The translations under genes were made by a program, and so were the position numbers. This document shows positions 5,207-19,345 of a DNA stretch of 64,000 nucleotides, piece after piece; positions within the stretch are counted from its first letter, which is position 1, and every line of letters starts with the position of its first letter. Source of the stretch: Planctomycetota bacterium. Its GTDB lineage: Bacteria; Planctomycetota; Planctomycetia; Gemmatales; Gemmataceae. Under the pieces are notes generated by a model. It did no database searches. It saw only the letters and a program-made list of their open reading frames with translations, and was not told the origin of the DNA. The stretch spans positions 1 to 64,000 of the forward strand of contig VGZJ01000002.1 of the NCBI GenBank assembly GCA_016872595.1, read 5' to 3'.

Positions 5207-7053
5207 ATCGCACAGTAGAATTGACGGCGAAGCTCCTCGACGGCGCGCTCTCGGACGACGAGTGCGCCGAACTCGAAGCGCTCGTCGCCGCCGACCCCAC
5301 GGCAGAGGCCGAGTACCTCGCCCTACTCGATCTTGAAGCGGAACTGCGCGCGACGCGGACCGGTTTGGACTTCACCGTTGTTACACTCGCTCGGATTCGC
5401 GCCGCGCAAGCCGAGCTCACCGCGAGCGCGGTGCTGGACCGGATCGAGCGCGCACCCGCGCCGGCGTGGGCCGCGCGCCCCGCCGCTCGTGCGCAGCGCC
5501 GGGGCTGGGCCGCGGCCGGCGCGCTCGCCGCCTGCGCCGCGGCCGTCTCACTTGCCCTCTGGTTCGGCTCGCGCCAATCGCAAGTTATTGAACCCGGTCC
5601 GAACGGCCCTGCGCCGGAGGCGTTCGCGAAACTCACTCGCAAAACCGGCGCGGTGGAGGTGCTATCGCCCGCAGGAGAGGCGCTCGTCGCGGAAGAGGGT
5701 GGCGATCTGCCCGCCGGGTTCACCGTCCGCACCGTCGGCGACGACAGCCACGCCGTAGTCGAGTTGCTCCGCGACCAGACGCGCGTCGAGATCGACCCGG
5801 ACTCGGTGGTACGATTCACCGGCGACGCGCCCGAAACGCGCGGCCAGCCGCGCATGTTCCTCGCGTCCGGCCAGCTCACGGCCGCGGTGCCGGAGCGCCC
5901 GGACGACCGGCCCTTCATCGTCGCCACGTCGGTAACGGATATCCTCGCGCGCGGCAGCACGTTCGTTCTCTCGTCGGCCGGCCCGGAGTCGGCGCGCGTC
6001 GACATCAAGAAGGGGAAAGTGGAACTGGTGCGCGCGCTCGCGCCGAAGCCGGTGCCGGTGGGCGTCGGCTCGGCCGTCGTCCGGGCGGACACCGAGAAGG
6101 TGGACATCCAGCGCACGTTCGTGCTCGACCGCACGCCGCGGCGCGCCCTTGCGGCCCCGGCCGTGCGCGACGCGACCTTCTCCCCGGACGGCTCCGAGGT
6201 GTGGGTCGCCAGCCCGCGCCACCTCGCCCGCTGGTCTGCCGACGGCGGGCTAAAGGAGACGGCGTTTTACCCGCGGAAGGGGAACGACGGCGGTGCAGCG
6301 TTCTCGCGCGACAAGCGCCTCATGGTGTCGTTCCGTCCGGGGGACGTGTCCACGCTCGCACGGACCGTGCCGGACGGGGGCGAGCACGCCGCGATCAATG
6401 TGCGACTCAACGAGATGCGCCATTGGGCGCTCGCCGCGGACGGCGCGTGGCTGGCCGTGACCGAGCCGAAGCCGCACCTGAAGCGCGTTCGCGTGTTCGA
6501 CGCCGCGACCGGCGACGAGCGGTTCGCGCGCGAGTTCGAGGAAGTTACCGCCGCGATCGCTGCCGCGCCCAACGGCGAAACGCTCGCTGTGGGGTTGAAC
6601 GACCCGTCGCGCGGCGTCAACAATAAGATCGTGTTCCTGAACGCCGCGACCGGCGACCGGCTGTTCGCGCTCTCCACGCAGCGCCGCCCGCTGACCGCGC
6701 TGGCGTTCTCGGCCGACGGCCGGTACCTCGCGGCCGGTTTCAACGGCGCGGTGCAGGTGTGGGACGTGAAGGCCCGCGAACTGGTGCGCACCATCACCGG
6801 GTTCGAGCGGGCGCTCGTGTGCCTCGCGTTCGCGCCTGACGGCAAGCGTCTCGCGGCCGGTACGCAGGACGGCCACGTCTGGATGTGGGAGCCGAGCACC
6901 GGGCGGCAGACGCAACTCATCGAGACCGGGGGGCGCGCGGTTCGTGCACTCTCGTTCGGCCCGAACGGGAAGCAGCTCGTCACGGTCGCCAACGTGAGCG
7001 GCGTCGCAGTGTGGGACGTGACCGACGTTCCCCCCGCGCCGGTCGTGCAGTGA
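5203..7053 (+). CDS. Anti-sigma/FecR-like N-terminal region with C-terminal WD40 repeats
   Basis: ATGA overlap with the sigma-factor stop; TM AAAGALAACAAAVSLALWF; FecR-like GDDSHAVVELLRDQTRVEIDPDSVVRF; WD40-like FSADGRYLAAGFNGAVQVWDV repeats. Confidence 0.75.
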   Translation: MNRTVELTAKLLDGALSDDECAELEALVAADPTAEAEYLALLDLEAELRATRTGLDFTVVTLARIRAAQAELTASAVLDRIERAPAPAWAARPAARAQRRGWAAAGALAACAAAVSLALWFGSRQSQVIEPGPNGPAPEAFAKLTRKTGAVEVLSPAGEALVAEEGGDLPAGFTVRTVGDDSHAVVELLRDQTRVEIDPDSVVRFTGDAPETRGQPRMFLASGQLTAAVPERPDDRPFIVATSVTDILARGSTFVLSSAGPESARVDIKKGKVELVRALAPKPVPVGVGSAVVRADTEKVDIQRTFVLDRTPRRALAAPAVRDATFSPDGSEVWVASPRHLARWSADGGLKETAFYPRKGNDGGAAFSRDKRLMVSFRPGDVSTLARTVPDGGEHAAINVRLNEMRHWALAADGAWLAVTEPKPHLKRVRVFDAATGDERFAREFEEVTAAIAAAPNGETLAVGLNDPSRGVNNKIVFLNAATGDRLFALSTQRRPLTALAFSADGRYLAAGFNGAVQVWDVKARELVRTITGFERALVCLAFAPDGKRLAAGTQDGHVWMWEPSTGRQTQLIETGGRAVRALSFGPNGKQLVTVANVSGVAVWDVTDVPPAPVVQ

Positions 7054-7066
7054 CTACAATGCCCGC

Positions 7067-7942
7067 ATGAAACGCACAGTCCTCGTCGCTCTCGTCGCGC
7101 TCACGACCGCGCCCGCGCGCGCGGCCGACATCTACGCACAGGACAACCTCGTCGCGTGGTGCATCGTTCCCTTCGACGCCAAGAAGCGCGGCCCGGCCGC
7201 GCGCGTCGAGATGCTCCAGAAACTCGGCTTCAAGAAGTACGCCTACGACTGGCGCGCCGAACACCTGCCGACGTTCGACGAAGAAGTCGTGCTACTGAAA
7301 GAGGCGCAAATCGAACTGACGGCCGTGTGGTTCCCCGCGAACCTCGGCCCGGACGCGCAGAAACTCCTCGCGGTCCTGAAGAAGCACGAGATCAAGACGC
7401 AGCTTTGGATCACGACGGGTGAACCCGCGGGCGCGGACAAGGCCGCGAAGGTGGCGAGCGCCGCGAAGGCCATCAAGCCCATCGCGGAGGAAGCCGCGAA
7501 GCACGGCTGCACGGTCGCGCTCTACAACCACGGGGGCTGGTTCGGCGAACCCGCCAACCAAATCGCCATCATCGAGGAACTGAAACTCAAGAACGTCGGC
7601 ATCGTTTACAACCAGCACCACGGCCACGACCATTTCGACACGTTCCCAGAACTGCTGAAGCAGATGAAGCCGCACCTGTTGGCGCTGAACCTGAACGGCA
7701 GCGTCAAGGGCGGGGACAAGGCCGGGAAGAAAATCGCGCCGCTCGGCGCGGGCGAACTCGACGTGCAACTTCTGAAAGAGATCCGTGCCAGCGGCTACGC
7801 CGGGCCGGTCGGCGTACTGGGCCACACGCAGGACGACGCGGCCGAGCGCCTCGCCGACAACCTCGACGGCCTTAAGTGGCTGCTGCCGCAACTGGACGGA
7901 AAGGTCGCCGGCGCGCGCCCGAAGTACCGCACGTCGAAGTGA
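7067..7942 (+). CDS. Sugar phosphate isomerase/epimerase (TIM barrel)
   Basis: Secretion signal then LQKLGFKKYAYDWR..VALYNHGGWFGEP..GIVYNQHHGHDHFD..LLALNLNGS. Confidence 0.75.
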   Translation: MKRTVLVALVALTTAPARAADIYAQDNLVAWCIVPFDAKKRGPAARVEMLQKLGFKKYAYDWRAEHLPTFDEEVVLLKEAQIELTAVWFPANLGPDAQKLLAVLKKHEIKTQLWITTGEPAGADKAAKVASAAKAIKPIAEEAAKHGCTVALYNHGGWFGEPANQIAIIEELKLKNVGIVYNQHHGHDHFDTFPELLKQMKPHLLALNLNGSVKGGDKAGKKIAPLGAGELDVQLLKEIRASGYAGPVGVLGHTQDDAAERLADNLDGLKWLLPQLDGKVAGARPKYRTSK

Positions 7943-7995
7943 AGAGTGGCCGCACGATCCGCGCCGAAGAAAGCCACGATCTGAGGAGACCGAGT

Positions 7996-8841
7996 TCAAT
8001 CCGGCTCTCGTCTGCTCTGCTCGTGTCTTTGTCTGTGTTCATCGTGCGGCTCTTGCTTTTCTGCGTCCGTGACGGGCCGCACAGCCATTTGCTGCGCGTC
8101 GAGGCCGCCGTCCACGGTGAACACGCTGCCGGTGCTGTAGCCGGCGCGGTCGCTCGCCAGAAACACGTACCACCACGCCACGTCTTCCACGGTCGCAATC
8201 TTGCGGAGCGGAATCTGCGCGATAACGGCCTCGCGCTCAGCGGGGTTCGACTTCAATCCGAAGTCGGTCAGCGGCGTCTCGACGAGGCCCGGCGCGACCG
8301 CGGCAGTCGTGAACCCGTGCGGGGCCAGTTCCACCGCGAGCTGCCGCGTGAGCGCGTTCACCGCGCCTTTACTGGCGTCGTATAGTGTGTGCAGTGGCTC
8401 GGACCGGGTCGCGTTCAGCGACGTGCTGAACAGGATGCGCCCGCCGCGATTCGCCGCCACCGCGCGGCGCACGACTTCGCGCGCCAGCGCGACCGGAACC
8501 CACACGTTCAACCGAAATATGAAATCGAAGTGGTCGCGTGTCAGGTTCGTGAGCGTCGGTTCCTTGTACGTGCCGAGGTTGTTCACCAGCACGTCGGTGC
8601 CGCCGAACGCGGCCCACGCCTCTGCGACGAGGCGCTCCGGTTCGCCGTCCGCGAGCAGGTCGGCTTGAACGTACCGGGTGTGTTCGTAGTCGCTCAGGAG
8701 GCGCTGCACCTCCGGGCACTTCGTCAGGGGTTTCTCGCTGGTCACGACGACCTTCGCGCCGCTCGCGGCGAACGCCTGCGCGACACCGAGGCCGATCCCC
8801 TGACTGCTGCCGGTCACGAGCGCGGACTTGCCGTTCAACAT
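7996..8841 (-). CDS. SDR-family oxidoreductase
   Basis: MLNGKSALVTGSSQGIGLGVAQAFA, NNLG, YDASKGAVNALTRQLAVELAPHGFTTAAVAPGLVETPL. Confidence 0.9.
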   Translation of the reverse strand: MLNGKSALVTGSSQGIGLGVAQAFAASGAKVVVTSEKPLTKCPEVQRLLSDYEHTRYVQADLLADGEPERLVAEAWAAFGGTDVLVNNLGTYKEPTLTNLTRDHFDFIFRLNVWVPVALAREVVRRAVAANRGGRILFSTSLNATRSEPLHTLYDASKGAVNALTRQLAVELAPHGFTTAAVAPGLVETPLTDFGLKSNPAEREAVIAQIPLRKIATVEDVAWWYVFLASDRAGYSTGSVFTVDGGLDAQQMAVRPVTDAEKQEPHDEHRQRHEQSRREPD

Positions 8842-8930
8842 GGTGCGGCCTTCGGAGGAATCGACACACGCCGTGTGCCGTAGCGATAAGGTAGGTGTAG
8901 TGTGCGCCGACTTCACTGAGGAGCCCGCCG

Positions 8931-9908
8931 ATGCGCAGCACCGAAGCCACAGTGTACATCGACTACAACGACGACGACGAGCGGTATCTGCCCGAAGGCC
9001 CGCGGATGATCGACATCGGGGGCCGGCCGGCGCTCGTGTGGGTGAACATCCAGTACGACGCGACCGCGGACGTGGGCGACGTGAACATTCATTTCCCCGA
9101 CACCGACGGGGGCGACGACGCCGGGATCGGCTGCCCCGGCCGGCCGGGGTTCCTCCTGCCGATCGACGAAGACGACCGCGCGCTCGTCGGCGTGGACAAC
9201 GACCTACTCATCCTCGATCTGGCGGAAGGGTTGTGGTCCGAACCGCTGGCGTCGATCCCCGACCGCGACCCGCGCACGATTATCAACGACGCCGAGGTGG
9301 TGCCCGGCGGCGGCGCGGTCGTGTTCGGCACGAAGGACACGCAGTTCAAGGACGCGATCGCGCACTTGTACCTGTACACGCCCGCAGACAACCGCGTCAC
9401 AGTCCTCGCAGACAAACAACTCTGCTCGAACGGCAAAGTGTTCGCGACCGACGCGCGCGGCGTGATCCTGTACGACATCGACACGCCGACGCGCAAGGTC
9501 GCGCGGTACAGGCTCGACGTGGCCGCGCGCACGCTCACGCCCGACGGAATCGCGCTCGATCTCTCGAACGAACCGGGCTTCCCGGACGGCATGTGCGACT
9601 GTGGCGACGGCACGGTGATCGTGGCTTTTTACAACCCGGAGCCGGTGGCCGCGGGGCGCGCCGTGCGCTACGACCTCGCCACCGGCGCGGCGGTCGAGGA
9701 GTGGCTGACGCCCGGCTCGCCGCGGGTGACGTGCCCGCTGCTGGTCAAGCGGCCCAACGGTGTGAAGTTGTTCCTCACAACGGCGACCGAGGGGATGCCG
9801 CCGGCGCAGCGCGCGAAGTGCCCGAACGCCGGCTGCATCTTCGTCGCGGACACCACACTCAAGGATTGCCCCGCGCCGGAGGTGGTGAGGTTTCCAGAAA
9901 CCGAATAG
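8931..9908 (+). CDS. SMP-30/gluconolactonase-like beta-propeller protein
   Basis: CSNGKVFATDARGVILYDIDTPTRKVARYRLD..TPDGIALDLSNEPGFPDGMCDCGDGTVIVAFYNP. Confidence 0.75.
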   Translation: MRSTEATVYIDYNDDDERYLPEGPRMIDIGGRPALVWVNIQYDATADVGDVNIHFPDTDGGDDAGIGCPGRPGFLLPIDEDDRALVGVDNDLLILDLAEGLWSEPLASIPDRDPRTIINDAEVVPGGGAVVFGTKDTQFKDAIAHLYLYTPADNRVTVLADKQLCSNGKVFATDARGVILYDIDTPTRKVARYRLDVAARTLTPDGIALDLSNEPGFPDGMCDCGDGTVIVAFYNPEPVAAGRAVRYDLATGAAVEEWLTPGSPRVTCPLLVKRPNGVKLFLTTATEGMPPAQRAKCPNAGCIFVADTTLKDCPAPEVVRFPETE

Positions 9909-9991
9909 CGCTCGTCCGCGCGGCGCAACTACGGTGCTTGAACGGCGCGCCGCGAGCGCGTACCATCTCTCCACCGCTTCTGGGACGACCA

Positions 9992-11758
9992 ATGGCTCGG
10001 GCGCGACCGCCACAACCGCCGACCAGTGACCCGAACTGGGAGCGCACGCTCCGCATGTTCGAGTCCGGCGCGCCCGAGTTCGTGGACGCGGTGCGCCAGC
10101 GGGTCACCGCCGCGGCACTCGCCACCTTCGCCGAGACGTGGTACACCGATTCGCGCATCGAAGCGAAGCGGCTCCTGTTCGCGTACCTCGACCGGCCGTT
10201 CAACTCGCCGCGCCACGAGCCGCTGGTGAAGCGCCTGTTCAAGTTCGCGGACGCCGCCGGCGACGACGCGGTGATGGCCCGGTTCCTCGTGGGGTTCGAC
10301 CGCACCATCCGCCGGCGGCGCGCGACGACGGAAAAGTACAACCACAAGACGCGCGCCTATGAACCGCGCGAGAAACTGAGCACGCCGCCGGACACGGTGC
10401 TGTCGCGCGAGGACCGCAACTACGCCGGTGCGTGGTTCGCGCAGAACCGCGAACAGTTCGTCGCCGGCAAGTTCCTCTTTTCGCTGGCGACGCGCCGCTA
10501 CCTGCGCCGCCGCGCGTGGCGCTACTTCCGCAAACTCGGGCGCAACAAACCGGAGCGCTACGTACCCGCGGTGTGCGCCGCGCTGAAGTTGTACACCGAC
10601 GCCGACGTTCCCGACGGCCTCGCGCTGCTCGATAACTGGGGACTTGTTCACGTCTTGTTTCACCACTCGCCCACCATCGAGTCGAAGCCAAACGGTTGGG
10701 TGGTCGCGTCCGGCGGCACGCTGGCGAAGTTGCAACCGGACCCAATGTTTCGCAAACTGTGGCTGCGCGGCCCGGAACCGATCTTCGACCTGTTGGTTAA
10801 CGCGCGGTGCCGGCCGGTCAGCATGTGGGCGGTGCAGATGCTGCGCCGCAACTTCCCCGACCGGCTCAAGCGCCTGACGCTCGACGAACTGCTCGCGTGG
10901 GTGATCTCGCCGAACCCGGTGTTGAACGACATCGCGCTCGAGGTGCTGGAATCCCGCGGCGGCCTCGAAGGCGTCACCATCGAGCAATGGCTGACGCTGA
11001 CCGAAGAGGCGCGCCCGGAACTGCTCGACCGCATCTGCGAGATGGTCGCGCGGAACGTGAAGCCGGAACAGGTGGCGTTCGCGGACGCGGTGAAGTTGGC
11101 GATGCAGCGCCCTGTGCCGCTCGCGCGCCTCGGCTTCGCATTCCTCCAACACAAATCGCCGAAGACTGCCGCCGAAGTTGCCGCGGTGTTCGGCCTGCGC
11201 GACGCCGCGGCCGATCCGCTGCGCGCCGATCTGGTGCGCTGGGCGGCGCGCGTACTGAGCGCGCGCCCGGAGTTCAACCCGCTGTGGGTGCTGGAGTTCC
11301 TCGACAGCAGGTACGAAGAGGTGCGCGAGATCGGCTGGGAGTGGCTGCAGACCGACGCTCGCGCGCGCGAATCGCCGCTCGTGTGGCAGCGGCTCCTCGA
11401 ATCGCCGTACGATAACGTGCGGCTGCGCATGATCGGGATGCTAGAGGACCGAGCGAAGTACGGCGACGCGCTCGCGGGCTTCGCCCCGGAGCGCGTGCGG
11501 TTCCTGTGGGCGGCGGTGCTACTGAACGTCTCGCGCGGCGCGCGCGCGAAGCCGTTCGTGGTGCGCCAGATGATCGACCGCTTGGGCGCGCACCCGGACG
11601 AGGCCGGCGACCTGCTCCCGATCCTCGCGGTGGCCCTGCGCTCGGTGCGCGGTCCGGAGTTCCGCGCGGGCTTGGCCGGCGTTGCCGGGTTCGTCGCGCG
11701 CCACCCGACCCGCAAGAACTTGGTGGAGGCGGTGTTTCCCGAACTGAAGTGGAGTTGA
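9992..11758 (+). CDS. ARM/HEAT-like helical-repeat protein, putative retron accessory
   Basis: In-frame ATG at 9992; long helix-rich protein (WAVQMLRRNFPDRLKRLTLDELLAWVISPNPVLNDIALEVLESRGG...); first gene of the WHSWIM/RT block. Confidence 0.6.
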   Translation: MARARPPQPPTSDPNWERTLRMFESGAPEFVDAVRQRVTAAALATFAETWYTDSRIEAKRLLFAYLDRPFNSPRHEPLVKRLFKFADAAGDDAVMARFLVGFDRTIRRRRATTEKYNHKTRAYEPREKLSTPPDTVLSREDRNYAGAWFAQNREQFVAGKFLFSLATRRYLRRRAWRYFRKLGRNKPERYVPAVCAALKLYTDADVPDGLALLDNWGLVHVLFHHSPTIESKPNGWVVASGGTLAKLQPDPMFRKLWLRGPEPIFDLLVNARCRPVSMWAVQMLRRNFPDRLKRLTLDELLAWVISPNPVLNDIALEVLESRGGLEGVTIEQWLTLTEEARPELLDRICEMVARNVKPEQVAFADAVKLAMQRPVPLARLGFAFLQHKSPKTAAEVAAVFGLRDAAADPLRADLVRWAARVLSARPEFNPLWVLEFLDSRYEEVREIGWEWLQTDARARESPLVWQRLLESPYDNVRLRMIGMLEDRAKYGDALAGFAPERVRFLWAAVLLNVSRGARAKPFVVRQMIDRLGAHPDEAGDLLPILAVALRSVRGPEFRAGLAGVAGFVARHPTRKNLVEAVFPELKWS

Positions 11759-11760
11759 GT

Positions 11761-11880
11761 TCGTCTCTGGGGCCGCGGGCGTCCCGCCCGGCGCTGCACA
11801 CGGGTCGAGACCATGCGGTTCGACGACATGCCACACGGCGCGCTGAGCGGCGGGCGGGACGCCCGCGGTCCCAAAGACGA
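11761..11880. repeat. Interspersed palindromic element, family 1
   Basis: 11761-11790 tcgtctctggggccgcgggcgtcccgcccg pairs with 11851-11880 (28/30). Confidence 0.9.
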
Positions 11881-11893
11881 CTGTTTGAGCCAC

Positions 11894-12100
11894 GGTGTCC
11901 GGCGCGGTCCGAGACTACCTCTGCGGTGTTCCGCCGCGGGTGAGCTTGCTCGCGATTGCGCCCCCCGGCGCGTTGTTCTTTTCGCCCGGACAGTACAGGT
12001 CAGGCGGAGCTGAATCAACCTGCGTCCTCCGCCCGACCTGTACCGGCCGGGCGTCGTGAACGCACCGGGTCCGGGATCGAAGTCGGTCGCGCCGGACATC
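11894..12100 (+). ncRNA. Putative retron msr-msd ncRNA, copy A
   Basis: a1 ggtgtccggcgcg (11894-11906) pairs with a2 cgcgccggacatc (12088-12100, one G-U); hairpin ctgcggtg-ttc-cgccgcgg; msd-like hairpin 11983-12053 with 17-bp stem (one mismatch) and loop ctgaatcaacctgcgtc. Confidence 0.8.
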
Positions 12101-12142
12101 TGGATTTTGTTGCGAAGCCGCAGGCGGCGCTAAGAGAAAGCC

Positions 12143-13840
12143 ATGCAAGTTGCGTTCGCCTATCGCGGTCGGAGCGGCGTCACCCAGACGAACGTCGGGT
12201 TGGCGGTCGCACTCGCGCCGAACCTGCGCCGCGACCGCGTCAGCTTCGTGGGCACACTCAAGCAGCCGCTGCGGTTCCGCGAGGCCATGAGCGCCTTGCA
12301 CGACGTGGTCGTTTCCGACCTGCGATACAAGCCGAAGGACAAGACCGCGTACGAGCAGTGGAAGAAGGCCGAGGCCGAGAAAGAAGCCGCGATCCGCCGC
12401 GACGCGGCGAAGATGAAGCGCGCCGAGTTGGAGAAAGCCGCCAAGCGCCCGATGCCGCCCGGCCTCGAACGGGCGTACGAGAGGTGCCGCCAGCAGTACT
12501 GGGGCGCGCGGACGCGCTACGGCACGATGCTGTCGCGCGAAGACCCGGAACTCTGGCGCATGCTCATGCCGTGCGACCCGGTCATCACCGTTTCGCCGGA
12601 CGTGCTGTTCTTCGAGTGCTTCAGCGCCGACGAGAGTAGTTACGGCTGCCTGAACGTCGAGCGCGAGGCGTTCGAGGCGCAAACCGACATCGCGCTCGGC
12701 ACAACGAACGTCGACTACTCGTGGCGACTGTACGAGCACTTCCAGACGATTCGCAGCTACCGCGAGACACGATTCAGCATCGACCCTACGGGCTTCGAGG
12801 TGCAAACGAGCGCCGACGAGGGTGCATACCGCGAGGAAAAGATCGACCTGCCGCAGTCGTGGCTCCGCGGGTTCTCGTCGCTCCAGTCCGCGATGAGTCT
12901 CCCCATGCGCCGCGTCCCGGTCAGTCGTGAGGGGCTGTACTCGCTCATCACGTTCCTGAAGACGCACAAGGCGAAGTCGTCGCCGCGCGCGGTGCGCTTC
13001 GAGCTGACGCCGGGCGCGCCCGTCAAGATCGTGCTGGAGCCGTGGAACAAGGAGATCGTGTTGCACGACACGCCGTACCCCGGCGCGAAGGCGGAAGTGA
13101 TTCGGACGTGGGGCCGCGACCGGCTCCGCGTGTTGGGGCGTTTGCTCCCACTGCTCGACGGCTGCGATGTGTACCTACTCGGCAGCGGGCTACCGAGCTT
13201 CTGGGTCGCGCGGATGGGCGAGATGAAACTGACGCTCGGCCTGTCGGGGTGGACCGCGAACGACTGGACGAGCGGCGGGAGCGCAATCGACCAACTCGCC
13301 CCCCCGGTCGCGCCGTCGAACGACGCGATGCGCGCGATGACCGATGCCTTCAAGCAGAACCCGACGTGGACCCTCGACGCGCTCGCCACCAAGACGCGCA
13401 CGAGTGCGCCCGCGGTTTCGGCCGGGCTGAACAAGCTCGCGCTACTCGGTCAGGTGATCCACGACCTGCCGCACGGCGTGTACCGCTGGCGGCAGATTAT
13501 GCCGGTCACGCTCTCGGCCGAAGTGATCGGCCCGGACAACGAGGAGACCGTGGCCGCGCGCGACCTGACTGGCTGGAAGTGCCGTGTCACGTCAGACAAG
13601 ACCGACGCGAAGGGGCAGCGCACGGTGGTGGGTGTGGTCGAAGGGCGCTCGTCCAGTGAGCTGACGCTCGACCGCGACGACTGCATCGTGGCGGGGAAGT
13701 GCGGCTGTTCGTACTTCTACACGGGTGGCCTCCGCAAAGGCCCGTGCCGGCACCTGCAAGCGCTCCGCAACAAGGCACTTGGCAACGGCGAGAGCGGCGG
13801 CACGTTAGAAAACTGGTTCAAGCGGTTCAGGAACTCATGA
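12143..13840 (+). CDS. Winged-helix + SWIM zinc-finger protein (WHSWIM-type retron accessory)
   Basis: WH-like TWTLDALATKTRTSAPAVSAGLNKLALLGQVIHDLPHGVYRWR; SWIM CxC..CxH: CGCSYFYTGGLRKGPCRHLQAL. Confidence 0.8.
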   Translation: MQVAFAYRGRSGVTQTNVGLAVALAPNLRRDRVSFVGTLKQPLRFREAMSALHDVVVSDLRYKPKDKTAYEQWKKAEAEKEAAIRRDAAKMKRAELEKAAKRPMPPGLERAYERCRQQYWGARTRYGTMLSREDPELWRMLMPCDPVITVSPDVLFFECFSADESSYGCLNVEREAFEAQTDIALGTTNVDYSWRLYEHFQTIRSYRETRFSIDPTGFEVQTSADEGAYREEKIDLPQSWLRGFSSLQSAMSLPMRRVPVSREGLYSLITFLKTHKAKSSPRAVRFELTPGAPVKIVLEPWNKEIVLHDTPYPGAKAEVIRTWGRDRLRVLGRLLPLLDGCDVYLLGSGLPSFWVARMGEMKLTLGLSGWTANDWTSGGSAIDQLAPPVAPSNDAMRAMTDAFKQNPTWTLDALATKTRTSAPAVSAGLNKLALLGQVIHDLPHGVYRWRQIMPVTLSAEVIGPDNEETVAARDLTGWKCRVTSDKTDAKGQRTVVGVVEGRSSSELTLDRDDCIVAGKCGCSYFYTGGLRKGPCRHLQALRNKALGNGESGGTLENWFKRFRNS

Positions 13841-14355
13841 CGCCCGACACCCCGCCCCCCACCGTTTCGCCGTCCCACCAGAAGTACATCTTGTGGGCCG
13901 GGATCGCGGGCGGGCTGATCGGCGCGCTCGTGTCGTTCGCGCTGGCGCGTACGTTCCCGCCGAAACCGGCGGTCGCGCCGCCCGCGCCGCCGAGCGAGGC
14001 CCGCCAGTTCGCGGACCATGTGATCGGCAAACTGAGAGCCGGCGACCGCGCCGAGTTCACACGCCTGATCCGCCCGGCGTTCGCGGGGATGACGAACGAG
14101 CAGTTCGCGGAGTTTTGTCAGAAGAGCGTGTTCGACAACCGCGACCAGTTCGCGAAGTCGAACGGCGGCGCGGTCGAGATCGAGTTCGCGCGCGAGACCG
14201 TGCTCAGTCCGTCGCTGGTGCGCCTCGCCTACGCCGACAAGTACGCGCGCGGGTGCCTCATTTGGGTGCTCGTGGTTTACAACACCCCGGAGGGCTGGCA
14301 GGTGCTGGCCTTCAGTTTCGACAGCGAAACGACCGGGTTCCGCGCGCTGCAGTGA
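13837..14355 (+). CDS. Small single-TM protein, translationally coupled to the WHSWIM gene
   Basis: ATG at 13837 overlaps the TGA at 13838-13840; TM ILWAGIAGGLIGALVSFALA; soluble domain ADHVIGKLRAGDRAEFTRLIRPAFAGMTNEQFAEFCQK... Confidence 0.75.
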   Translation: MTPDTPPPTVSPSHQKYILWAGIAGGLIGALVSFALARTFPPKPAVAPPAPPSEARQFADHVIGKLRAGDRAEFTRLIRPAFAGMTNEQFAEFCQKSVFDNRDQFAKSNGGAVEIEFARETVLSPSLVRLAYADKYARGCLIWVLVVYNTPEGWQVLAFSFDSETTGFRALQ

Positions 14356-14369
14356 GAGAGTGTGAAACC

Positions 14370-14575
14370 AAGCGGCCGGCTCCGAGACTTAAACGTCCTG
14401 CGGCGTTCCGCCGCGGGTGAAGTCGCCAGCGATTGCGCCCCCGAGCGCGTTGTTCTTTTCGCCTCCAGAAATAGGTAGTTGGCGAACTGAACCGACCTGC
14501 GTTTTCGCCAACTACCTATTTCCGGAGGCGTCGTGAACGCGCTCGGTCCGGGTCGGAAGTCGGAGCCGGCCGCTT
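14370..14575 (+). ncRNA. Putative retron msr-msd ncRNA, copy B
   Basis: a1 aagcggccggctccg (14370-14384) perfectly complementary to a2 cggagccggccgctt (14561-14575); hairpin cctgcggcg-ttc-cgccgcggg; msd-like hairpin 14460-14530 with perfect 18-bp inner stem, 7-bp outer stem and 17-nt loop ctgaaccgacctgcgtt. Confidence 0.85.
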
Positions 14576-14581
14576 TGTCTT

Positions 14582-14653
14582 GGCGAACGGCCGGTGTCAG
14601 ACGGCCGGTTCTTTGCGTCGCCCTTACCAGCCGGCTGACACCGGCCGTTCGCC
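14582..14653. repeat. Inverted repeat (19-bp perfect arms) directly upstream of the RT start codon
   Basis: 14582-14600 ggcgaacggccggtgtcag / 14635-14653 ctgacaccggccgttcgcc. Confidence 0.9.
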
Positions 14654-14662
14654 GGGGCTGTC

Positions 14663-16234
14663 ATGGGCCTGTTCGACTGGATGTTCCGCCGCGGGCGCAA
14701 GGTCGAACCGGACCCGGTCGCGCCCCCATCTACCGACGCTTCCCTTCGGGGTGCGGCTAAGCCGGCAGAGCCTGCGCCGCCGCCACCACCCGCGGATCAG
14801 TACGCCGCGACCGATTTCCTGCCGATCACGCGCGAAGAGATCGTGGACGCGGCGAAGGAACACGGGCGACTGCTCTGGACCGCGTTCCAATTCGGGCGGC
14901 CGTCGCAGATTCCCCCAACCAGCGACCCGCGGACGCAGATCATCGACCGCGCGCTCGTCACCCACGGCCTGCTCACGCCAGAAGATTTGACCGAGATTCA
15001 CACAGTCGGCGCGGAATACGACGAGGTGAAGCCGACCGAGATGGCGATTGCCGCCGCCGCGGGGCTGGCCGGCAATGCAGCGGTGCAGGAGTACCGCGAG
15101 GCGAAGGAGCGCGAGAAGGCCCGCAAGAAGGCCGAGAGCGCCGCGCGCAAGAAGGCCCGCGCCGCTGAGGTCAAGCGCCGCCGCGATACCGACATCATCT
15201 TCTTGGGGCGCGGCGTGTCCGGGCGGCTCCACATGCGCCTCAGCGACGAGGCGAGCCTGACGGCGCGCGGCCTGCCGGTGCTGCACGCGCCCGCGGACGT
15301 CGCGAAGGCATTGGGCCTGACGATCAAGCAACTCCGCTGGCTCGCGTACCACACCGAGGCCGCGACCCGAACGCACTACGTTAAGTTCGAGATTCCCAAG
15401 AAGTCTGGCGGGATGCGCACGCTCGCCGCGCCCCACAAGCGGCTGAAGGCGGCGCAACACTGGGTGCTCGCGAACGTCGTCAACAAGCTGCCGACCACGG
15501 ACGCGGCGCACGGCTTCGTGCCCGGGCGCGGGATCGTCTCCAACGCGAACCCGCACGTCGGCAAAGCCGTCGTCGTGAACCTCGACCTGTCGGACTTCTT
15601 CCCGACGATCACCTTCTTTCGCGTCCGCGCCGTGTTCGAGCGCTACGGCTACTCCGGCAGTGTGGCAAGCGTCCTTGCCCTGCTGGCGACCGAGTGCCCG
15701 CGCGCGAGCGTGACCTACGCCGGCACGAAGTACGAGGCCGCGACCGGCCCGCGCGGGTTGCCGCAGGGCGCGCCGACCAGTCCCGGCCTGTCGAACCAAG
15801 TGGCGCGCAAGCTGGACAAGCGGTTGCTCGGCGTCGCCACGAAGCTCGGCCTGACGTACACTCGCTACGCGGACGACCTCACGTTCAGCGGCGGTCCGGA
15901 ACTGGCCGGCAAGATCGGCTGGCTGCTCGCGAAGGTGCGGCACGTCGCAAAGGAAGAGGGCTTCGCGGTCAACGAGAAGAAGACGCGCGTGATGCGCCGC
16001 AGCGCCGCCCAGATGGTTACGGGGGTCGTGGTGAACGACAAGCCGTCCGTCTCGCGCGACGAGTTGCGCCGGCTGCGCGCGATCCTGCACCGCGCGAAGA
16101 GCGAAGGGCTGGACGCGCAGAACCGCGAGAACCGCCCCAACTTCACCGAGTGGCTCCGCGGCAAGATCGCGTTCGTGAGCATGGTGCGCCCCGACACCGG
16201 CGCGAAACTAAAGGCCGCGTTCGACGCGCTGTAA
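14663..16234 (+). CDS. Retron-type reverse transcriptase with long N-terminal extension
   Basis: VVVNLDLSDFFPTITFFRV; GLPQGAPTSPGLSNQVARKLDKRL; YTRYADDLTFSG; NANPH (NAxxH) at 15542-15556; VTG at 16016-16024. Confidence 0.9.
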   Translation: MGLFDWMFRRGRKVEPDPVAPPSTDASLRGAAKPAEPAPPPPPADQYAATDFLPITREEIVDAAKEHGRLLWTAFQFGRPSQIPPTSDPRTQIIDRALVTHGLLTPEDLTEIHTVGAEYDEVKPTEMAIAAAAGLAGNAAVQEYREAKEREKARKKAESAARKKARAAEVKRRRDTDIIFLGRGVSGRLHMRLSDEASLTARGLPVLHAPADVAKALGLTIKQLRWLAYHTEAATRTHYVKFEIPKKSGGMRTLAAPHKRLKAAQHWVLANVVNKLPTTDAAHGFVPGRGIVSNANPHVGKAVVVNLDLSDFFPTITFFRVRAVFERYGYSGSVASVLALLATECPRASVTYAGTKYEAATGPRGLPQGAPTSPGLSNQVARKLDKRLLGVATKLGLTYTRYADDLTFSGGPELAGKIGWLLAKVRHVAKEEGFAVNEKKTRVMRRSAAQMVTGVVVNDKPSVSRDELRRLRAILHRAKSEGLDAQNRENRPNFTEWLRGKIAFVSMVRPDTGAKLKAAFDAL

Positions 16235-19241: not shown

Positions 19242-19345
19242 GGGACCGCGGGCGTCCCGCCCGCTGCAACGCGCGTCGTGTGGGTTGGCGAGAAGCCGCA
19301 CAGCCTCGACCCATGTGCAGCAGCGGGCGGGACACCCGCGGTCCC
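19242..19345. repeat. Interspersed palindromic element, family 1
   Basis: 19242-19266 gggaccgcgggcgtcccgcccgctg pairs with 19321-19345 (24/25); same core as 11761-11880. Confidence 0.9.

Follow-up and report, generated by a model that had tools for sequence, protein, structure and literature searches.

A type XIII retron operon with two msr-msd RNAs and one reverse transcriptase in the Gemmataceae

The locus lies in a window of 64,000 nucleotides, the whole stretch of DNA that was analysed, from a member of the planctomycete family Gemmataceae. All parts of the operon are on the forward strand, in the order HEAT-ARM protein, a first structured RNA (copy A), SWIM protein, a small membrane ORF, a second structured RNA (copy B) and a reverse transcriptase (RT), and the features are as follows.

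9992..11758, +, HEAT-ARM_XIII protein, the operon's first gene (PADLOC E 1.5e-186; inferred start codon)
11894..12100, +, copy A, msr-msd ncRNA between HEAT-ARM and SWIM (fold z -6.5)
11913, +, candidate branching guanosine of copy A, in CCGAGAC, directly 3' of the a1 stem
11983..12009, +, copy A msd stem, 5' arm (inverted repeat I4, 89% complementary)
12010..12026, +, copy A msd loop CTGAATCAACCTGCGTC, conserved in alignment A1
12027..12053, +, copy A msd stem, 3' arm (inverted repeat I4)
12143..13840, +, SWIM_XIII protein (PADLOC E 1e-182; CxC...CxH at residues 520-537)
13837..14355, +, small ORF of 172 aa, overlapping the SWIM stop codon, with a likely N-terminal membrane helix (by eye)
14367..14578, +, copy B, msr-msd ncRNA between SWIM/small ORF and RT (fold z -11.9)
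14386, +, candidate branching guanosine of copy B, directly 3' of the a1 stem
14460..14486, +, copy B msd stem, 5' arm (inverted repeat I2, 96% complementary)
14487..14503, +, copy B msd loop CTGAACCGACCTGCGTT, conserved in alignment A1
14504..14530, +, copy B msd stem, 3' arm (inverted repeat I2)
14663..16234, +, type XIII retron reverse transcriptase (PADLOC RT_XIII E 1e-155; NANPH at 294, YADD at 402, VTG at 452)

Judged by PADLOC profiles the operon is a type XIII retron, with an RT of the XIII clade and HEAT-ARM and SWIM partner genes. The RT scores 517 bits with the RT_XIII profile versus 367 for the next-best profile, and its NANPH, YADD and VTG correspond to the NAXXH, YXDD and VTG motifs of retron RTs (PMC6868368). 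Its closest solved relative is the Ec86 retron RT (E 1.5e-59, approximately 280 residues alignable), whereas the match to Drt2 reaches E 1.6e-5, which does not place it in a DRT clade. The HEAT-ARM protein is mainly helical in an AlphaFold prediction of medium confidence (mean pLDDT 70), and the model of the SWIM protein (pLDDT 47) is too poor for use. The small ORF has no match in Pfam or PADLOC and has homologues at 10 other loci within the genus; the idea that it forms a single module with copy B was rejected, each being found without the other (L001; L009, L097). The gene order is identical at L001-L004, L091, L093 and L095. A scan of 9900-14700 found no sigma-70-like promoter, a kind of scan that is uninformative for this phylum.

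The preliminary description of this DNA had placed two structurally equivalent msr-msd-like RNAs in the operon, and direct repeats, paired hairpins and folds beyond those of shuffled sequences all agree with this. Two direct repeats, one of 66 nt (88%) and one of 37 nt (84%), link the copies, each at the same offset of 2477. The predicted folds, of -121.7 kcal/mol for copy A and -134.4 kcal/mol for copy B, were each equalled by none of 200 shuffles of the same dinucleotide content. Each is built like a retron RNA, from a1/a2 ends that are complementary to each other, msr hairpins and an extended msd hairpin of 27+27 nt around a 17-nt loop (11983-12053 in A and 14460-14530 in B), in which three of 27 stem pairs are mismatched in copy A and one in copy B. 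The limits first given for copy A, 11894-12100, stand; those for copy B, 14370-14575, are better drawn at 14367-14578 by its a1/a2 arms (14367-14385 and 14560-14578), which are 19 nt long and 95% complementary. The gap from the end of copy A to the SWIM start is 43 nt. No Rfam family matched in a scan of the window, and the covariance model R1 scores copy A at 208 bits (E 1.2e-52) and copy B at 202 bits (E 4.4e-51), both being among its 16 training sequences.

The candidate branching guanosines were assigned by the position rule for retron priming guanosines, as in PMC6868368, where known contexts are TAGC, CAGA, CAGC, GAGC or ACGC. The G that follows the a1 stem is invariant in alignment A1, in the context GAGA (GAGC in L105 and L107).

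Alignment A1 comprises 16 homologous RNAs, aligned with MAFFT without reference to structure. Paired cells amount to 93.9%, against 73.0% in shuffled alignments and 37-43% with slid partners, a control over which the consensus structure is favoured because RNAalifold derived it from the same alignment. The covariation score is 0.547 versus 0.157 for shuffles that ignore relatedness among the RNAs, none of 500 shuffles reaches any observed value, and both sides have changed in 33 of 57 pairs. An alignment-free exchange of arms among 65 RNAs gives the same picture: the mean score of a 5' arm is 19.8 against the 3' arm of the same RNA and 8.2 (sd 1.9) against those of other RNAs. Conservation of the structure across homologues is thus confirmed, and the covariation and the pairing of each arm with its own partner agree with the selection on structure proposed earlier from the two copies. 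The accompanying proposal of compensatory stem changes covers only half of what is seen: close orthologues swap the stem as a block and not one pair at a time (see below).

A search with the RT yielded 21 loci, in several of which BLAST found both copies. The covariance model that had been suggested for searching relatives was built from 16 copies and run over the 21 RT loci and 98 genomes of the family, where it found further copies, and another 51 stretches were annotated with home-made profiles of the RT, SWIM and HEAT-ARM proteins. The arrangement with both A and B is kept in at least three Gemmataceae genera. The operon is present in 14 of 19 genomes of the genus Gemmata; all 14 have an orthologue of copy A, and 12 have both A and B, in G413 spread over two contigs. 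Four of these 12 (G403, G404, G406 and G411) have a third operon copy, A2, adjoining A, and because G408 and G410 carry the operon with copy A alone, two operon copies are not essential. In a second genus (g305) A and B occur in all five genomes with hits, some of them cut at contig ends, and G470 also retains A and B together. Loci of other Gemmataceae genera carry either one copy, at the A position (L110, L111, L114, L115), or a tandem pair (L122). Those from other planctomycete families (L128-L134) carry one copy, before the RT at the B position. In G437 the operon appears to be split between separate contigs, one with SWIM and two ncRNAs and one with the RT and one ncRNA (L113, L112).

Common to all copies are the msr hairpins, the sequence surrounding the candidate priming guanosine, and the flanks and loop of the msd; the a1/a2 ends and the long msd stem are particular to each. 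The ends are specific to the locus, with a mean identity of 0.83 within a class versus 0.49 between classes, and the cores are at 0.81-0.86. The protein profiles, the RT motifs, the G after a1, the covariation and the retention of both copies in relatives support the reading as a retron operon in which two RNAs accompany one RT. The earlier picture of one RT with two ncRNAs was nonetheless too small, for the operon can hold three, and additional copies stand alone.

These solitary copies score well and have no RT, SWIM or HEAT-ARM gene in the fetched flanks, which are mostly 5-8 kb. One site lies between nfeD and floA in four of 19 Gemmata genomes (G409, G410, G412, G416), and another (O1) follows a WD40/cytochrome gene in eight of 19 (G403, G404, G405, G406, G407, G411, G418, G419), the neighbours being named from reading their translations. 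Both sites are kept by descent. Most of the intact copies (O1 and O2) score 168-209 bits, that at O1 of G405 scores 99 bits, and the full structure is kept. The O1 copy of G406 is interrupted by about 1.1 kb, and that of G407, a genome without a cognate operon, has decayed; in G418 the solitary copy is intact and no cognate RT operon was found in an assembly of 250 contigs. Seven copies are present in G470, whose genome is one contig of 6.69 Mb: the operon holds two, three form a tandem array and two stand alone. This genome encodes one type XIII RT and two other RTs outside the XIII family. Locus L119 has a tandem array of three solitary ncRNAs (7190-7886), each with a different stem, which follows a recJ-like gene and one more ORF; the genome it belongs to has one type XIII RT.

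Most Gemmata genomes contain a second and third XIII-like RT. These may be able to use the solitary copies, although in G470 such RTs are absent. In the genome under study a second pair of SWIM_XIII and XIII-like RT genes lies on contig C8 (L135, approximately 6733-9920), with equivalents in most Gemmata genomes, and the covariance model found no RNA of the copy A/B family beside this second RT.

The behaviour of the msd stem is clearest among the closest genomes, G403, G404 and G406, whose fourfold (silent) sites are 77-86% identical. Their orthologous A, A2, B and O1 copies mostly have core identities of 96-99% and end identities of 93-100%, and the stems are often unrelated; in the extreme pair the core is 99%, the a1/a2 ends 100% and the stem 23% identical, where shuffles give a chance expectation of 41% (95th percentile 0.64). 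Between G403 and G404, with silent sites at 0.862, the four orthologous stems have identities of 0.45, 0.36, 0.23 and 1.00. For copy A, G403 and G406 share one stem and G404 has another (0.45, 0.23); for A2, G403 and G404 share one stem and G406 differs; for copy B, all three differ (0.59, 0.36, 0.23); and for O1, the stems of G403 and G406 are almost the same and G404 has an unrelated one (0.23). Since unrelated stems sit inside near-identical cores and ends, whole stems are exchanged with their arms still paired. At wider distances, stems of the same class have an identity of 0.53, somewhat above chance, so slower change occurs too.

Two observations suggest exchange between copies inside fixed ends: the stem of copy B in G413 is near-identical (0.91) to that of O1 in G404, the cores of the two being 0.80 identical, and the A2 copy of G406, which has A2-type ends, groups with B copies in the core tree. 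The copy classes do not form strict clades in that tree, which needs 21 label changes, a number that is far below the shuffled mean of 34.7 and fits exchange between copies. No target for the stems is apparent, because five exact scans of 19-21 nt against IMG/VR gave no match to viral contigs, copy B's stem matches nothing in its own genome beyond the retron with up to three mismatches, and copy A's stem finds three other places there at three mismatches, the same count as a reversed control pattern.

Descriptions of retrons pair a single RT with a single ncRNA, and Retron-Eco1 (Ec86), which has an alignable RT domain and a single msr-msd with a1/a2 ends and a long msd stem, differs from this system in having one ncRNA per RT and another effector. 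The nearest known kind is retron type XIII, defined in PADLOC-DB by RT, HEAT-ARM/WGR and SWIM, to which the three proteins match at E <1e-150 and in which the ncRNA adjoins the RT; what sets the present system apart is that several hypervariable RNAs are maintained together, as two or three operon ncRNAs and solitary copies, whereas the L128-L134 families have one. Retron-Nex1 (Ne160) of Nannocystis exedens is also reported to have duplicated msr/msd repeats, with no RT within a kilobase (PMC6868368); compared by description, the copies here differ in lying within the RT operon, in being kept in place across species and in having replaced stems. Diversity-generating retroelements likewise pair an RT locus with sequence that varies rapidly between close relatives, but the variable part here is an RNA hairpin, and no adenine-biased template/variable repeat pair was noticed. 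In the literature searched, from which the type-defining Mestre 2020 was absent, there was no retron operon with several ncRNAs, no solitary orthologue in a fixed place and no block replacement of msd stems.

We favour, as somewhat the more probable account, a type XIII retron in which one RT serves two msr-msd RNAs, and up to seven in relatives, as a set of sensors. By analogy with retron biochemistry, the RT would prime from the guanosine after a1 in each RNA (11913 and 14386), and each RNA would give its own branched msDNA, distinct in its duplex stem. The RT would be expected to recognise the shared msr hairpins, priming-G stretch, and msd flanks and loop, and in the Ec67/Ec73 experiment RT and msr were paired while the msd was exchangeable (PMC6868368). 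Less securely, the RT-msDNA complexes would hold SWIM and HEAT-ARM, the probable effector module, inactive until phage infection released them by altering an msDNA, for instance through cleavage, modification or binding. We infer that several msDNAs are made and used as different sensors; their stems would then perhaps be what is sensed, serving as several tripwires, and rapid stem replacement would alter sensing or evade phage inhibitors.

It is rather unlikely that msDNA comes from a single RNA, probably copy B, which lies immediately upstream of the RT, and that copy A is an RT-bound autoregulatory leader setting the level of SWIM in cis. Its place 43 nt upstream of the SWIM start, the constancy of position and a1/a2 ends of A-class RNAs across species and the single A-position copies of other Gemmataceae genera are consistent with this, and copy A might act mainly in cis. 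However, copy A keeps an entire msd hairpin with replaced stems and a conserved loop, which a binding site would not need, it is the sole copy found in the genera of L110, L111, L114 and L115 and thus their only candidate msDNA template, and solitary copies are not upstream of SWIM. We think it quite improbable that the copies are redundant duplicates or retro-insertions, through selfish spread or dosage, with no distinct role. Copies have long been kept at the same places across species, their core identity of 0.96-0.99 exceeds the 0.77-0.86 of silent sites, and pairing is intact in nearly all of them, even though tandem pairs and a triple array (L113, L119, L122), solitary copies beside unrelated genes (L116, L118), the damaged O1 copies of G407 and G406 and the duplicated msr-msd of Ne160 with no RT nearby (PMC6868368) speak for redundancy.

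The stems themselves might diversify without selection for new sequence, if pairing alone is constrained and template switching at palindromes changes both arms; this is a real possibility, if not the one we expect, and as it covers stem variation only it is compatible with the sensor-set account. Pairing rather than sequence is indeed kept and the stem bases match nothing else, but stem divergence exceeds silent-site divergence in close pairs, and some close pairs have identical stems at one locus and unrelated ones at another, a mixture not expected of uniform drift. That the element is another kind of RT-associated RNA, such as a DRT-like template or a riboregulator, would fit the lack of an Rfam match and is very improbable given the RT signature motifs, the PADLOC retron XIII profiles for three genes and the msr-msd anatomy.

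Beyond the sensor set itself, we consider more tentatively, and regard as doubtful, a retron with a repertoire, in which one RT makes several msDNAs from operon and chromosomal RNAs, block replacement of stems between closely related strains diversifies the sensors, and the RT's own DNA product possibly moves stems between copies. If true, this would be a diversification of sensors comparable to other variable immune repertoires. The hypervariable and always-paired stems offer a natural test of whether stem sequence sets the defence trigger, and RTs from this lineage, which would naturally accept different RNAs, could be used to make several DNAs per cell.

Two dispersed repeats also lie within the operon. 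An inverted repeat, GCGGGCGGGACGCCCGCGGTCC, occupies 11761-11880 of the window, between HEAT-ARM and copy A, and recurs at 19243-19344, with 37 matches in the genome; a palindromic repeat beginning CGAACGGCCGGTGTCAG occupies 14582-14653, between copy B and the RT start, and has 19. Both were rejected as parts of the retron because of their many copies in the genome.
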